This document shows positions 5,020-51,595 of a DNA stretch of 64,000 bases, one piece after another. A program made the position numbers and the translations under genes. How positions within the stretch are numbered: the first letter of the stretch is position 1; every line of letters begins with the position of its first letter. The notes under the pieces are model-generated. The model saw nothing but the letters and a program-made list of their open reading frames with translations, was not told where the DNA came from and did not search any database. The stretch covers positions 1 to 64,000 of the forward strand of contig NZ_VDDD01000004.1 in NCBI RefSeq assembly GCF_006151785.1, written 5' to 3'. The DNA is from Paracoccus marcusii (GTDB taxonomy: Bacteria > Pseudomonadota > Alphaproteobacteria > Rhodobacterales > Rhodobacteraceae).

Positions 5020-5045
5020 GGAACTTGCGCGCAGCGTGGTCCGTT
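5020..5045 (+). promoter_or_regulatory. EcfG-type (general stress) promoter candidate
   Basis: GGAAC at 5020-5024, a 17-base spacer, and CGTT at 5042-5045 exactly fit the alphaproteobacterial EcfG consensus. The element points at the 24-aa peptide gene, whose ATG is 69 bp downstream of the -10. A short perfect hairpin (5069-5084) lies in the untranslated leader. It is one of four such elements in the window. Confidence 0.6.
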
Positions 5046-5113: not shown

Positions 5114-5188
5114 ATGAACTCGATCATCTACATTGTCGGCCTGGTTGTCGTCGTCCTGTTCGTCCTGTCGTTCCTCGGCCTGCGTTGA
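5114..5188 (+). CDS. 24-residue single-span membrane peptide
   Basis: A tiny open frame ATG 5114 to TGA 5188. After Met-Asn-Ser comes an unbroken hydrophobic stretch rich in Ile, Val and Leu, ending in Phe-Leu-Gly-Leu-Arg, so the product is essentially one transmembrane helix with a positive C-terminus. A clear Shine-Dalgarno (AAGGGA) lies about 7 bases upstream. The gene is 11 bp before the glycine-zipper gene and both sit behind an EcfG-like promoter. I know of no named family, but tiny envelope peptides are frequent among alphaproteobacterial stress genes. Its job is unknown; it could be a regulator or partner of the next protein. Confidence 0.65.
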   Translation: MNSIIYIVGLVVVVLFVLSFLGLR

Positions 5189-5199
5189 GGGTTAACAGC

Positions 5200-6324
5200 A
5201 TGAACGAAAACCTCGAAGCAGCCGGCACCGGCTCGCGCCCCCATGTCGACTGGGCATCCATCCTTGCCGGTGCGGCCATCGCCGCGGGCGCCTCGGTCGT
5301 CTTCACGGGCTTCACGGCTGCCATCGGTCTTGGTTCCGTCTCGGCAGAGCCGGGCGAAGGTTTGGGGACGTTCGCCCTGATCCTGGTCGGCCTGTTCGCC
5401 TTCGCGTCCATGGTGGCCGTCTATGGTCTGGGTGGATACGTGTCGGGGCGGATGCGCCGTCGCACCCATTCCGGTGAGGACCAAACGGATGCACGTGACG
5501 GCATCCATGGCCTGACCGTTTGGGCAATCGGCATGATCCTGACGGGCATCCTGGCCGCAGGCGCGGTCTCCAGCGGCGTTCGCGCGGCCGGCAATGCGGC
5601 TTCGACCGCGGTCGAGGCCGCAGGTTCCGCCGTGGGTGGTGCCGTTCAGGGCGCCGGCCAGCTGGCCGGCGGCGTCGTCGGTGGCGTTGGCCAAATCGCT
5701 GGCGGTGCCGTCAGTGGCGTCGGTCAGCTCGCCAGCGGTGCGATTTCGGGCGCCGGTGAGGCCGCTGGTGGTCAGGACATGGGCGGCAATCCGCTGGACT
5801 ATGTGACCGACCGTCTGCTGCGCAGCGAGGCTGCGGCACCGGATCAGTTCTCGAACGAGGCGATCCGCAACGAGGTCACCGGCATCCTGGGCACCGTGCT
5901 GCGCACGGGCGAGGTGGCCGATGACGATCTGGACTATCTGCGCGACGCGCTTGCTGCCCGTACCGACCTGACCCCGGCCCAGATCGACGCCCGCGTCGAG
6001 GAAGCCGTGACCCAAGTCCAGGACCTGCGTGCCGAAGCCGAAGCCCGCATCGAAGAAGCGCGGACCCAGGCTGAGGAAGCCGTGGCCGCTGCCGAACAGC
6101 GCGCCCAGGAACTGCAGGCGCAGGCCGAACAGCAGCTGCAGGAGGCACAGGATGCCGCCATCGCCGCTGCCGAATCCGCCCGCCGCGGTGCGGTGTGGAG
6201 CGCGCTGTTCCTGGCCGTGTCGTCGCTGGTCTCTGGTCTGGCCGCCTGGATGGGCGCCATCAAGGGCGGTTCGGACCGCGATGCCGGTCGCGTCTGGGGC
6301 GGCCTGTCGCGTCGCCGCACCTGA
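5200..6324 (+). CDS. glycine-zipper and coiled-coil membrane protein
   Basis: A 374-residue protein of unusual build. Two membrane helices (about 18-46 and 56-80) are followed by a third (about 102-124). Next comes a glycine-zipper region (about 129-190) made of imperfect 11-12 residue repeats of the type V-G-Q-(I/L)-A-(G/S)-G-A. A long Ala/Glu/Gln coiled coil spans about 262-328, and a last helix sits at about 330-352 before an Arg-rich tail. ATG 5200 was chosen because everything upstream in frame is non-coding leader and the 24-aa gene. It resembles uncharacterised 'PhnA-like' membrane proteins of Rhizobiales, without clear enzymatic features. Glycine zippers suggest oligomerisation in the membrane. 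The EcfG-like promoter suggests a stress-induced envelope role, which is inference. Confidence 0.75.
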   Translation: MNENLEAAGTGSRPHVDWASILAGAAIAAGASVVFTGFTAAIGLGSVSAEPGEGLGTFALILVGLFAFASMVAVYGLGGYVSGRMRRRTHSGEDQTDARDGIHGLTVWAIGMILTGILAAGAVSSGVRAAGNAASTAVEAAGSAVGGAVQGAGQLAGGVVGGVGQIAGGAVSGVGQLASGAISGAGEAAGGQDMGGNPLDYVTDRLLRSEAAAPDQFSNEAIRNEVTGILGTVLRTGEVADDDLDYLRDALAARTDLTPAQIDARVEEAVTQVQDLRAEAEARIEEARTQAEEAVAAAEQRAQELQAQAEQQLQEAQDAAIAAAESARRGAVWSALFLAVSSLVSGLAAWMGAIKGGSDRDAGRVWGGLSRRRT

Positions 6325-12717: not shown

Positions 12718-13554
12718 TCACAGGGCCCCGGCACCGAACGTGTCACATTGTCTCATGTCGCCCGAGTCGAACCCGCGCATCAGCCATTCCTGACGCTGCG
12801 CCGCGCTGCCGTGGGTGAAGCTGTCGGGCATGGGGGTCCGGCCCGCACTGGCCTGGATCACGTCATCGCCGACGGCCTCTGCTGCGCGCATCGCCTCGTC
12901 CAGATCGCCAACGTCCAGGGTGCCGAAACGTTCCTGCGCCTGGCGTGCCCAGATGCCGGCATAGCAGTCGGCCTGCAGTTCGGTCGCGACGGACAACTGG
13001 TTGGCCTGCGTTTCCGAAAGACCCGGCTGCTGCGCGGCGCCAAGGGTGCCGGTCAGGTTCTGGACGTGATGCCCCACCTCGTGCGCGATGACATAGGCTG
13101 CGGCGAAATCTCCCCCCGCGCCCATGCGATCCGCCATCATGTCGAAGAAGTCGGTGTCCAGATAGACGCGCTGATCGCCGGGGCAGTAGAACGGACCCAT
13201 GGCCGACGACGCACCACCGCAGGCCGATTGCACCACGCCGCTGAACAGGACCAGGGTCGGGTCTTGATAGGCGACGCCAGCCTGCTGCTGCAGCACGGGT
13301 TGCCAGACCTCTTCGGTGTCGGCCAGAACCACGCTGACGAATTCGCCCCATTCCTGGTCGCGCTGGCTCAGTTCGGTGGACTGCCCGCCGCCCTGATCCA
13401 GGCCCTGGACCAGCGGCGTCACGTCGATCCCGAAGAAATAGCCGACCGCCAGCACCACCAGCGTGCCCGCCACGCCCAATCCGCCGACCCCGGCGCGGCC
13501 CATGCCCCGCCGATCCTCGACATTTCCGCTGCCCCGTCGTCCGCGCCACTGCAT
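12718..13554 (-). CDS. ypfJ: YpfJ-type neutral zinc metallopeptidase
   Basis: A 278-residue membrane-anchored metallopeptidase of the YpfJ/KPN_02809 family. One N-terminal transmembrane helix (about 23-43) is followed by a catalytic domain facing the periplasm. The zinc motif H-E-V-G-H is at residues 158-162, with the glutamate of T-E-L-Q-A-D-C (about 192) as likely third ligand. Conserved cysteines (112, 124 and 197) suggest disulphides. The substrate is unknown. It sits behind an exact EcfG-like promoter and ahead of a 34-residue membrane peptide, which suggests stress-induced envelope proteolysis; this is inference. Confidence 0.9.
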   Translation of the reverse strand: MQWRGRRGSGNVEDRRGMGRAGVGGLGVAGTLVVLAVGYFFGIDVTPLVQGLDQGGGQSTELSQRDQEWGEFVSVVLADTEEVWQPVLQQQAGVAYQDPTLVLFSGVVQSACGGASSAMGPFYCPGDQRVYLDTDFFDMMADRMGAGGDFAAAYVIAHEVGHHVQNLTGTLGAAQQPGLSETQANQLSVATELQADCYAGIWARQAQERFGTLDVGDLDEAMRAAEAVGDDVIQASAGRTPMPDSFTHGSAAQRQEWLMRGFDSGDMRQCDTFGAGAL

Positions 13555-13584: not shown

Positions 13585-13609
13585 AACGCCCCGCCCCGCC
13601 GGGGGTTCC
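13585..13609 (-). promoter_or_regulatory. EcfG-type (general stress) promoter of ypfJ
   Basis: Read on the minus strand, GGAAC (13609-13605), a 16-base spacer and CGTT (13588-13585) match the consensus exactly. The -10 ends 31 bp before the ypfJ ATG, a normal promoter distance. Confidence 0.6.
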
Positions 13610-42935: not shown

Positions 42936-42960
42936 GGAACCCGACCACACGCGTCACGTT
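42936..42960 (+). promoter_or_regulatory. EcfG-type (general stress) promoter candidate
   Basis: GGAAC at 42936-42940, a 16-base spacer and CGTT at 42957-42960 match the consensus exactly. The next start codon is about 30 bp downstream. Confidence 0.6.
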
Positions 42961-49253: not shown

Positions 49254-49555
49254 AGCGCCGTTTGTCCCCTCAGCGTTCCCGCGCGGTCATAGACCAGCAC
49301 CCGGTCGTCCGTCGTCAGCACGACGATCCGATCGGTCGCAAAGGTCACCGCGCGGGTTTGCGCATCCTGGGGCAGCGTGATCGCATCGGGCAGTTCGGGC
49401 AACACGGGCTGGTTCAGCCGCACCCACAGCAGCGCCACGACCGCGATCATCCCCACCCCCATGACCAGCGTCAGCCCCGTCACCAGCGTCTTTAGAAAGC
49501 GCAGTTCCGGGACGGCTTTCGCCGCCACCTTCCAATCGGTATCATCCTGCGCCAT
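49244..49555 (-). CDS. small membrane protein, DUF6476-like
   Basis: A 103-residue protein. A short cytoplasmic N-terminus is followed by one membrane helix (about 22-45) and a beta-rich periplasmic domain (A-V-T-F-A-T-D-R-I-V-V-L-T-T-D-D-R-V-L-V-Y-D). It fits the DUF6476 family of Rhodobacteraceae, function unknown. Its ATG (49555-49553) overlaps the ATG of the divergent rluD-like gene in a single CATG. AAAGG lies 6 bases upstream, inside the other gene. Confidence 0.75.
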   Translation of the reverse strand: MAQDDTDWKVAAKAVPELRFLKTLVTGLTLVMGVGMIAVVALLWVRLNQPVLPELPDAITLPQDAQTRAVTFATDRIVVLTTDDRVLVYDRAGTLRGQTALQP

Positions 49556-50576
49556 GTCGATCCTTTCCGTGACCATTCCGGCCAACCCGCCCGACCGACT
49601 TGATAAGGCGCTTGCCATGGCGGTGCCAGACAATGCGGCCCTGTCGCGGTCGCGTCTGGCGCGGCTGATCGCCGACGGTGCGGTAACCGGTCCGGATGGC
49701 CCCGCACGCGACGTCAAGGCGCGCGTCGCCGAGGGTCAGGAATACCGCATCACCCTGGCCCCGCCCGAGCCTGTCGAGACGCGGGCCGAGGCCATTCCGC
49801 TGGTCATCGCGCATGAGGATGATGACCTGATCGTGATCGACAAGCCCGCCGGGATGGTCGTCCATCCCGCGCCGGGCAGCCCTTCCGGCACGCTGGTCAA
49901 CGCGCTGCTGGCGCATTGCGGCGATTCGCTGTCGGGCATCGGGGGCGAAAAGCGCCCCGGCATCGTGCACCGCATCGACAAGGACACGTCGGGCCTGCTG
50001 GTCGTCGCCAAGTCGGACCGCGCGCATCACGGCCTTGCCACCCAGTTCGAGGCGCATACCGCCAACCGGCGCTATCTTGCGCTGGCGCATGGGGCGATCG
50101 ACGCGGCCGATCCGCGTCTGCGTGGCACGCCAGGCGTCTCGTTCGAGGAAGGGCTGGTGCTGCGGATCGCCACGCACCTGTCGCGCCACCCGACCGACCG
50201 CCAACGTCAGGCGGTCTTTGCCGACAAGGGCCGTCACGCCGTGACCCGCGCGCGGCTGCTGGAACGGTTCGGCACGCCGCCTTCCGCCATGCTGGTGGAG
50301 TGCCGGCTGGAAACGGGGCGCACTCACCAGATCCGGGTGCACATGGCCCATTGCGGCCTGGGGCTGATCGGCGATCCGGTCTATGGCGGGTCGCGACGCG
50401 CCTCTGCCAAGGCGCTTGGCACCGCCGCGGCAGCGGTCCAGGGGTTTTCCCGACAGGCGTTGCACGCCGCGCATCTGGGGTTCGTCCATCCGGTCACCGG
50501 GGTCGAGATGGGGTTCGACAGTCCTCTGCCAGACGACATGCAGGAGCTTCTGGACGCCCTTCGCACCGCCCCTTGA
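49554..50576 (+). CDS. RluA family pseudouridine synthase (RluD-like)
   Basis: A 340-residue enzyme with an N-terminal S4-like RNA-binding domain (about 15-75) and an RluA catalytic domain. The catalytic aspartate is in H-R-I-D-K-D-T-S-G-L, and L-E-T-G-R-T-H-Q-I-R-V-H is diagnostic. It modifies uridines in large-subunit rRNA; RluD-type is likely given its position before rpoH, as in Rhodobacter. The ATG at 49554 shares bases with the opposite gene's start and has no clear Shine-Dalgarno, so a slightly later GTG (49572) is possible. Confidence 0.9.
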   Translation: MSILSVTIPANPPDRLDKALAMAVPDNAALSRSRLARLIADGAVTGPDGPARDVKARVAEGQEYRITLAPPEPVETRAEAIPLVIAHEDDDLIVIDKPAGMVVHPAPGSPSGTLVNALLAHCGDSLSGIGGEKRPGIVHRIDKDTSGLLVVAKSDRAHHGLATQFEAHTANRRYLALAHGAIDAADPRLRGTPGVSFEEGLVLRIATHLSRHPTDRQRQAVFADKGRHAVTRARLLERFGTPPSAMLVECRLETGRTHQIRVHMAHCGLGLIGDPVYGGSRRASAKALGTAAAAVQGFSRQALHAAHLGFVHPVTGVEMGFDSPLPDDMQELLDALRTAP

Positions 50577-50633: not shown

Positions 50634-50659
50634 GGAACCGGGCTGTTCGACGCTGCGTT
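50634..50659 (+). promoter_or_regulatory. EcfG-type (general stress) promoter of rpoH
   Basis: GGAAC at 50634-50638, a 17-base spacer and CGTT at 50656-50659, ending 27 bp before the rpoH ATG. It is an exact consensus match in the 110-bp gap between the rluD-like gene and rpoH. Confidence 0.62.
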
Positions 50660-50686: not shown

Positions 50687-51595
50687 ATGGCGACTTATGG
50701 AAATCTTCCCGCCCCAAGCCCGGAACAGGGTCTGAACCGCTATCTGCAGGAGATCCGCAAGTTTCCGCTGCTGGAACCCGAACAGGAATACATGCTGGCC
50801 AAGGCATGGGCCGATCACGAAGACAGCGACGCCGCGCATCAGCTGGTCACCAGTCACCTGCGTCTGGCCGCCAAGATCGCGATGGGATATCGCGGCTATG
50901 GCCTGCCGCAGGCAGAGGTGATCAGCGAGGCGAATGTCGGCCTGATGCAGGCGGTCAAGCGGTTTGACCCGGAACGCGGCTTCCGCCTTGCCACCTATGC
51001 GATGTGGTGGATCCGTGCATCGATCCAGGAATACATCCTGCGGTCTTGGTCCCTGGTCAAGATGGGCACCACAAGCGCGCAGAAGAAGTTGTTCTTCAAC
51101 CTCCGCAAGGCCAAATCCAAGATCGGTGCTCTGGAGGAAGGCGATCTTCGTCCCGAGAACGTCGCCCAGATTGCCACCGAACTGAACGTCACCGAAAAAG
51201 AGGTCGTCGACATGAACCGCCGGCTTTCCGGTGGTGACGCCTCATTGAATGCGCAGGTCGGGTCGGGCGATGGCGAATCGTCGGCACAATGGCAGGACTG
51301 GCTGGAGGACACGAACGCCAACCAGGCCGAAGCCTATGCGGAATCCGAGGAACTGGACACACGGCGGCAGATGCTGATCGACGCGATGGACGCGCTCAAC
51401 GAGCGTGAGAAGGACATCCTGATGGAGCGTCGTCTGCGCGACGATCCGATGACACTGGAGGATCTGTCCAGCCGCTACAGCGTGTCGCGTGAACGCATTC
51501 GCCAGATCGAGGTGCGCGCGTTCGAGAAGCTGCAGGAACGGATGCGCACCTTGGCCCGTGACAAGGGCATGCGGATCGCCGATACGGTCGAGTGA
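50687..51595 (+). CDS. rpoH: RNA polymerase heat-shock sigma factor RpoH
   Basis: A 302-residue sigma-32. Region 2 (about 50-120) includes the core-binding and -10 reading segment T-Y-A-M-W-W-I-R-A-S-I-Q. The RpoH box A-Q-K-K-L-F-F-N-L-R is at 131-140, the diagnostic FtsH/DnaK control site. Region 4 ends in the helix S-R-E-R-I-R-Q-I-E-V-R-A. By its RpoH box and length it resembles the classic heat-shock RpoHI rather than the RpoHII type. An EcfG-like promoter lies directly upstream, linking heat shock to a general stress input. A predicted target, hsp20, is in the same window. Confidence 0.95.
   Translation: MATYGNLPAPSPEQGLNRYLQEIRKFPLLEPEQEYMLAKAWADHEDSDAAHQLVTSHLRLAAKIAMGYRGYGLPQAEVISEANVGLMQAVKRFDPERGFRLATYAMWWIRASIQEYILRSWSLVKMGTTSAQKKLFFNLRKAKSKIGALEEGDLRPENVAQIATELNVTEKEVVDMNRRLSGGDASLNAQVGSGDGESSAQWQDWLEDTNANQAEAYAESEELDTRRQMLIDAMDALNEREKDILMERRLRDDPMTLEDLSSRYSVSRERIRQIEVRAFEKLQERMRTLARDKGMRIADTVE

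Follow-up and report, generated by a model that had tools for sequence, protein, structure and literature searches.

The stretch of Paracoccus marcusii DNA analyzed here, 64 kb in length and referred to below as the window, contains the gene rpoH, preceded in the same orientation by a gene encoding a pseudouridine synthase of the RluD type. Between these two genes lies the sequence GGAACCGGGCTGTTCGACGCTGCGTT, a copy of the bipartite motif GGAAC-N17-CGTT that was read directly from the window. Seventeen nucleotides separate the two conserved parts, and the rpoH start codon follows 27 nt past CGTT. Both position and start codon agree with the original prediction, which had interpreted this motif as an EcfG-type general-stress promoter. 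The RpoH product is 94% identical to its counterparts in Paracoccus gahaiensis and P. indicus. In the following, GGAAC-N16/N17-CGTT is called the strict motif; all copies in the window are included in Table 1.

Table 1. Positions of the predicted rpoH promoter, its neighboring genes, and the other strict motif copies in the window.
Feature	Position	Strand	Basis or remark
RluD-type pseudouridine synthase gene (PF00849), 5′ of and co-directional with rpoH	49554..50576	+	Pfam
GGAAC-N17-CGTT upstream of rpoH, whole element	50634..50659	+	window read directly
–35 element GGAAC, predicted EcfG-type promoter of rpoH	50634..50638	+	sequence; in 65/65 genus loci
–10 element CGTT, predicted EcfG-type promoter of rpoH	50656..50659	+	sequence; same 65 genus loci
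rpoH, 302 aa, rpoH1 type (ATG at 50687)	50687..51595	+	profile scores; sole heat-shock σ factor gene found in the genome
GGAAC-N16-CGTT 5′ of gene for 179-180 aa protein without Pfam match	42936..42960	+	start 42990 or 42993, end 43532
GGAAC-N16-CGTT 5′ of ypfJ (Zn_peptidase PF04228, 12718-13554, minus)	13585..13609	-	sequence, Pfam
Fifth strict match, within ypfJ coding region	12910..12934	-	probably chance
GGAAC-N17-CGTT	5020..5045	+	68 nt to 24-codon ORF (5114-5188); 154 nt to gene predicted at 5200

The RpoH protein scored 371.8 bits against the profile TIGR02392 (cut-off 323.1) and 412.4 bits against NF005143 (cut-off 241), and with 294.2 bits it remained below the cut-off of 315 for the rpoH2 model NF005693. 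The latter model was exceeded in none of 71 genomes of the genus, compared with 91 of 120 genomes of the family. Within the P. marcusii genome, the sole other match to RpoH at an E value of 1e-4 is 33% identical and belongs to a 707-residue frame, which we regard as RpoD because of its size. At 29 loci read from the class, the identity to RpoH was 62-78%, and further copies in the same genomes showed 41-59%. Based on model scores and identities rather than on a tree, we therefore assign Paracoccus rpoH to the rpoH1 group.

The strict motif occurs five times in the window, twice with N17 (5020 and 50634) and three times with N16 (12910, 13585, and 42936). Four identical elements, all of them intergenic, had been predicted. 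All four cited sites do exist at the positions given, but the total is five, and the additional match sits in the coding region of ypfJ; moreover, the sites have the nine motif bases in common and differ in their spacers. Upstream of the protein without Pfam match, the motif is kept in four of four orthologues found in 17 stretches (three strict, one GGTT). In case of ypfJ, 30 genus loci showed the strict motif in 9, C/GGTT in 11, and any base before GTT in 21 cases, so this copy is moderately kept once any base may precede GTT. For the neighbors of the 5020 site, no match was found in the stretches retrieved for the conservation check. The 24-codon ORF following this site on the forward strand encodes a hydrophobic product, possibly a stress-induced membrane peptide. 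Dinucleotide shuffles of the window contained a mean of 0.47 (N17) and 0.33 (N16) strict matches; two or more N17 matches, as seen in the window, were reached in 12 of 100 shuffles, whereas three or more N16 matches appeared in 0 of 100. Because of these counts, we consider the excess in the window real but modest, suggestive yet short of conclusive.

Genome-wide (3.67 Mb on 297 contigs), 68 strict matches compare with 36 for the backward pattern, which served as control. Rather than showing equal density in coding DNA, an outcome that had been named as an argument against the promoter reading, the motif is biased toward upstream positions: 37 of the 68 matches, but only 3 of the 36 controls, have a predicted start in the same orientation no more than 150 bp downstream (Fisher p = 2e-6). 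Non-coding positions account for 44 of 68 motif and 15 of 36 control matches (Fisher p = 0.04); since starts and coding regions were predicted with a simple gene caller, which leaves these 15 control matches outside genes, the comparison with the control is to be trusted, not the absolute coding fractions. A Pfam scan covered 19 of the 37 candidate targets, with rpoH profiled separately. These 19 were chosen by eye as likely informative and are therefore not a random sample, and the stress-type functions among them should not be taken as a complete tally: two CsbD, two DUF892, Fe/Mn superoxide dismutase, DUF2188, entericidin, CAP, transglycosylase-associated protein, LysM, cold-shock domains, PRC barrel, DUF533, glutathione transferase, DUF883, PAP2, ABM, the neutral zinc metallopeptidase YpfJ, and one protein without match. 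The entericidin, PRC, and ABM matches are barely above their cut-offs.

At the rpoH locus itself, the strict motif is present in all 65 upstream regions read from the genus, the window included. These regions were obtained by searching 71 genus genomes for RpoH, of which five gave no match at an E value of 1e-80 and one (G063) only a partial match, and no two regions are identical over 150 nt. The motif lies 15-60 nt before the rpoH start in 62 loci and at 61, 63, and 72 nt in the others, with a spacer of N17 in 47 and N16 in 18 cases. Seven Paracoccus loci from another collection also carry it, at a distance of 27-42 nt; one of these (L046) is the same region as L203 of the 65. In an alignment of the 65 loci on the motif itself, the nine motif bases are fixed, while the flanking columns mostly carry less than 0.5 bits. 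The neighboring columns with the highest values are the G before CGTT (1.61 bits), the C after GGAAC (1.39 bits), and the C before GGAAC (0.81 bits), with all others at or below 0.56 bits. For the 47 N17 loci, the mean pairwise identity amounts to 41% within the spacer, 33% in the 20 nt on the 5′ side, and 38% in the 18 nt on the 3′ side.

These data bear on the explanation that the rpoH site is a chance match or a conserved element of some other kind, such as an operator or an RNA structure. The shuffled windows with two N17 matches would be compatible with chance, and in the P. marcusii genome the site contains GAAC-N6-GTTC, which resembles a short palindrome. Nevertheless, the nine bases are retained at all 65 loci although the spacers have diverged, so that we reject a chance origin. 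The reading as a palindromic operator was likewise rejected: the inner palindrome is not general among the genus loci. Altogether, this explanation seems hardly credible to us. Some of the constraint on the motif could be on coding, since in 28 of 64 genomes it reaches into the 3′ end of the pseudouridine synthase gene that precedes rpoH (one of the 65 loci gave no tblastn match to this gene). In these 28 genomes (loci L219-L257), a single stretch of DNA thus constitutes both the putative promoter element and pseudouridine synthase coding sequence.

The genome was also searched for ecfG, nepR, and phyR, as had been proposed together with the original prediction. All three are present, the first as an EcfG-like σ factor gene, and they form one cluster with a gene encoding an HWE-type kinase. 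A single NepR match above cut-off (PF18557, 49.9 bits; cut-off 25.7) was found at C230:19888-19989, adjoining the best region-4 σ match of the genome (C230:19359-19517), and a PhyR-like match is located divergently from nepR at C230:20394. On the corresponding stretch L187, the gene order is kinase (596 aa), σ factor (188 aa), nepR, and divergent phyR (267 aa). PhyR reached 353.2 bits with model NF006623 (cut-off 240) and the σ factor 336.2 bits with NF009198 (cut-off 270), a model whose name is not EcfG. Among proteins of known structure, the chains closest in sequence to the phyR product are response regulators (9by5, 3n0r, and 4g97, among others), and for the σ gene the closest is the σ factor 5uxx. 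The kinase (L187:2463-4253, minus strand) matched HisKA_2 (77.9 bits) and HWE_HK (31.6 bits), while its score of 233.5 bits against the PhyK model is far below the cut-off of 750; it may represent a diverged PhyK-like sensor. Of 71 genus genomes, 70 contain NepR, whereas it exceeds the cut-off in just 52 of 120 family genomes. The general-stress system is thus almost universal in the genus but scattered among the surrounding family members, where repeated loss or divergence of the switch may have taken place.

Upstream of nepR, we identified GGAAC-N16/17-[ACGT]GTT in all 31 loci sampled (22 GGTT, 6 CGTT, 3 TGTT), located 75-84 nt ahead of where the NepR match begins. This sample consists of 30 genus loci plus that of P. 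marcusii, out of 70 genomes with a NepR match. The P. marcusii nepR site ends in GGTT and is therefore missed in the strict count of 68. For EcfG, a consensus of GAAC-N16,17-C/GGTT has been published, together with the statement that EcfG usually controls the ecfG/nepR and phyR units (PMC4814048); the element ahead of nepR fits both statements. The rpoH element likewise combines a GAAC –35 region, a spacer of 16 or 17 nt, and a –10 region of the C/GGTT type, in a genome that carries the cognate genes and in which the motif is enriched upstream of genes.

As an alternative, another ECF σ factor with a GGAAC-type –35 preference could read the rpoH site in place of EcfG. Twelve region-4 σ matches exist in the genome, some of which are probably other ECF factors, and a –35 sequence of this type is used, for example, by RpoE of E. 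coli (PMC8103513). We regard this as quite improbable, because the –10 region and the spacer fit the EcfG consensus (PMC4814048) and the same type of element precedes nepR in every locus of the sample. Our favored interpretation, to which we assign a probability of about 0.9, is that the element functions as the promoter from which RNA polymerase containing EcfG, the ECF15-type general-stress σ factor, transcribes rpoH. The original prediction is thus supported by the ecfG-like/nepR/phyR cluster, by the bias of the motif toward regions upstream of starts, and by its genus-wide conservation at rpoH; the relay from rpoH to heat-shock genes that it also proposed is an inference.

We compared the genus with 73 other rpoH loci, mostly named as Rhodobacterales and including one identical pair (L114 and L115). 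None of these 73 outgroup loci carries the strict motif 15-60 nt before rpoH. A single one (L054, from a Tabrizicola MAG) has it at 63 nt, which is inside the Paracoccus range (21-72 nt), and three more show strict matches farther upstream, at 132-164 nt. If any base is allowed before GTT within 15-80 nt, one more outgroup locus joins (L053, GGAAC-N16-AGTT at 40 nt). In 16 further family regions (of 20; the start was unlocated in four), no strict motif was detected within 300 nt before rpoH, and one of them (L298) contains GGAAC-N16-AGTT at 42 nt. Given L054, L053, and L298, the rpoH element may occasionally occur outside the genus as well. In both AGTT cases, however, it falls inside a CTTGAA-plus-palindrome sequence, so that these two may be coincidental. 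Across the class, 52 genomes had a match, and 29 loci besides that of P. marcusii were read from them: the strict motif was found in none of the 29 within 250 nt, and two loci gave loose matches.

Six other genera of the family possess NepR together with a single match to the rpoH2 model, which lies below the cut-off. We considered if a single rpoH and a general-stress system are sufficient for such a promoter, and rejected this idea: the two of six genera that were read, represented by G079 and G163, have no strict motif, so that single rpoH and NepR do not suffice there. G163 contains GGAAC-N16-AGTT at 42 nt, and G079 at best a loose match at 173 nt.

The upstream regions of the relatives differ from those of Paracoccus in another respect. 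CTTGAA, stated to be the –35 sequence of RpoH1-dependent promoters in S. meliloti (PMC4843759), is found within 150 nt before rpoH in only 1 of 65 genus loci, compared with 44 of 73 outgroup loci. A σ32-like expression gave 0 of 65 versus 27 of 73 over the same distance. A crude σ70-like expression also matched none of the 65 genus loci, but with just 8 of 73 outgroup loci this test is weak. In Paracoccus, the predicted EcfG-type element takes the place of the heat-shock-type CTTGAA sequence seen in most of the relatives read. Directly 5′ of rpoH, 58 of 78 loci have a homologue of the upstream gene (7 of 7 named Paracoccus, 51 of 71 others; two of the 80 rpoH loci were too short for this comparison). 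This common neighbor points to an in situ change of the promoter sequence rather than a relocation of rpoH.

Two further sequence features were observed in the relatives. An inverted repeat of the type ATGTTAAG...TAAACAT is located ~20-55 nt before rpoH in many of them (e.g., L076, L095, and L113); a regular expression for this repeat matched 23 of 73 outgroup and 0 of 65 genus loci, and it could be an operator or an RNA hairpin. A palindrome of the type ACCGATCGGT overlaps or closely follows CTTGAA in the outgroup loci L064, L075, L099, and L105, where it looks like a repressor operator over a heat-shock-type promoter.

If EcfG acts at this locus in P. marcusii as proposed, stress would lead to phosphorylated PhyR, which would remove NepR from EcfG. 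Free EcfG would then bind GGAAC-N16/17-CGTT and increase transcription of rpoH, presumably starting a few bases past CGTT, and RpoH would in turn transcribe chaperone and protease genes. Basal amounts of RpoH could derive from read-through from the upstream gene.

How much RpoH depends on this promoter is a separate question. The EcfG promoter might act as a booster only, with most RpoH originating from read-through or from a promoter of the housekeeping or heat-shock type within the upstream gene, and with heat control exerted mainly at the post-transcriptional level. This is a variant of the EcfG-promoter explanation and not an exclusive alternative. The upstream gene is co-directional and in the genus comes as close as 19 nt to rpoH, and a heat-shock response should not require a preceding stress signal. 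Elsewhere, RpoH is controlled largely at the level of translation and stability. The near-absence of CTTGAA and the absence of σ32-like matches in the 150 nt before rpoH argue against such a limited role, as does, more weakly, the σ70-like expression. We consider it a serious possibility, though one we would not bet on. A far-reaching version of the EcfG-promoter explanation would be that the general stress response captured the heat-shock regulator at the base of Paracoccus. It combines several assumptions: the heat-shock-type promoter of rpoH was lost; RpoHII was lost or never held; EcfG is the main transcriptional input to the single RpoH; the heat-shock capacity of the genus depends on PhyR/NepR/EcfG; and the basal supply comes via read-through from the pseudouridine synthase gene only. 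As a joint claim, we put this forward tentatively, with somewhat more doubt than belief.

What the comparisons do support is a predicted promoter element of the sole rpoH that is genus-wide and nearly lineage-specific. In Paracoccus, heat-shock control thus appears to be subordinate to the general stress response, unlike in nearly all relatives examined. In the open-licence literature, we found no description of Paracoccus rpoH being controlled by EcfG, nor a paper whose title or abstract indicated a start-site map for Paracoccus; a regulatory-network paper includes P. denitrificans (PMC4344238). A survey of rpoH promoters, whose promoter analysis is restricted to Rhizobiales, places rpoH1 under σ70 plus σ32 and rpoH2 under σ24, with mostly σ70/σ32 promoter signals for rpoH1, and its main text does not mention Paracoccus (PMC4843759). 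By the pattern of σ70/σ32-type signals near the start, it is the promoter of Paracoccus rpoH, not the protein, that departs from the Rhizobiales rpoH1 genes. If true, the genus as a whole would be an exception, in another order, to the Rhizobiales division between rpoH1 and rpoH2 promoters (PMC4843759), and would offer a clear example from nature of a central stress regulator whose promoter has been replaced. Paracoccus is also a genus that is readily handled in the laboratory.

Control of rpoH-type genes by ECF σ factors has been described in other systems. In the related R. sphaeroides, the heat-shock-type σ gene rpoHII is controlled by RpoE-ChrR (PMC5830050), but there both the ECF factor and the rpoH gene are different ones, the rpoH2 model being above cut-off in none of the 71 genus genomes. 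R. sphaeroides possesses the same general-stress cluster, and its phyR mutant is described as having no heat phenotype (PMC5830050), which counts against a relay from EcfG to the heat-shock genes; the proposed arrangement in Paracoccus suggests that this PhyR-independent heat survival should not be carried over to that genus. In E. coli, an ECF σ factor recognizing a GGAAC-type –35 region, RpoE, also transcribes rpoH, from the promoter P3 (PMC8103513). However, RpoE serves the envelope-stress response and P3 is the third of the rpoH promoters, whereas EcfG is a general-stress factor governed by the PhyR/NepR partner switch. A general-stress ECF σ factor acting on a heat-shock-type σ gene is found in rhizobia, where rpoH2 is transcribed through RpoE2 in S. 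meliloti and through EcfG1 in R. etli (PMC6180224, PMC3892343). Control of this kind is thus known for rpoH2; in Paracoccus, the element precedes the sole, rpoH1-type gene, in front of which the CTTGAA common in relatives is almost always missing, whereas the rhizobial target is a second gene, rpoH2.
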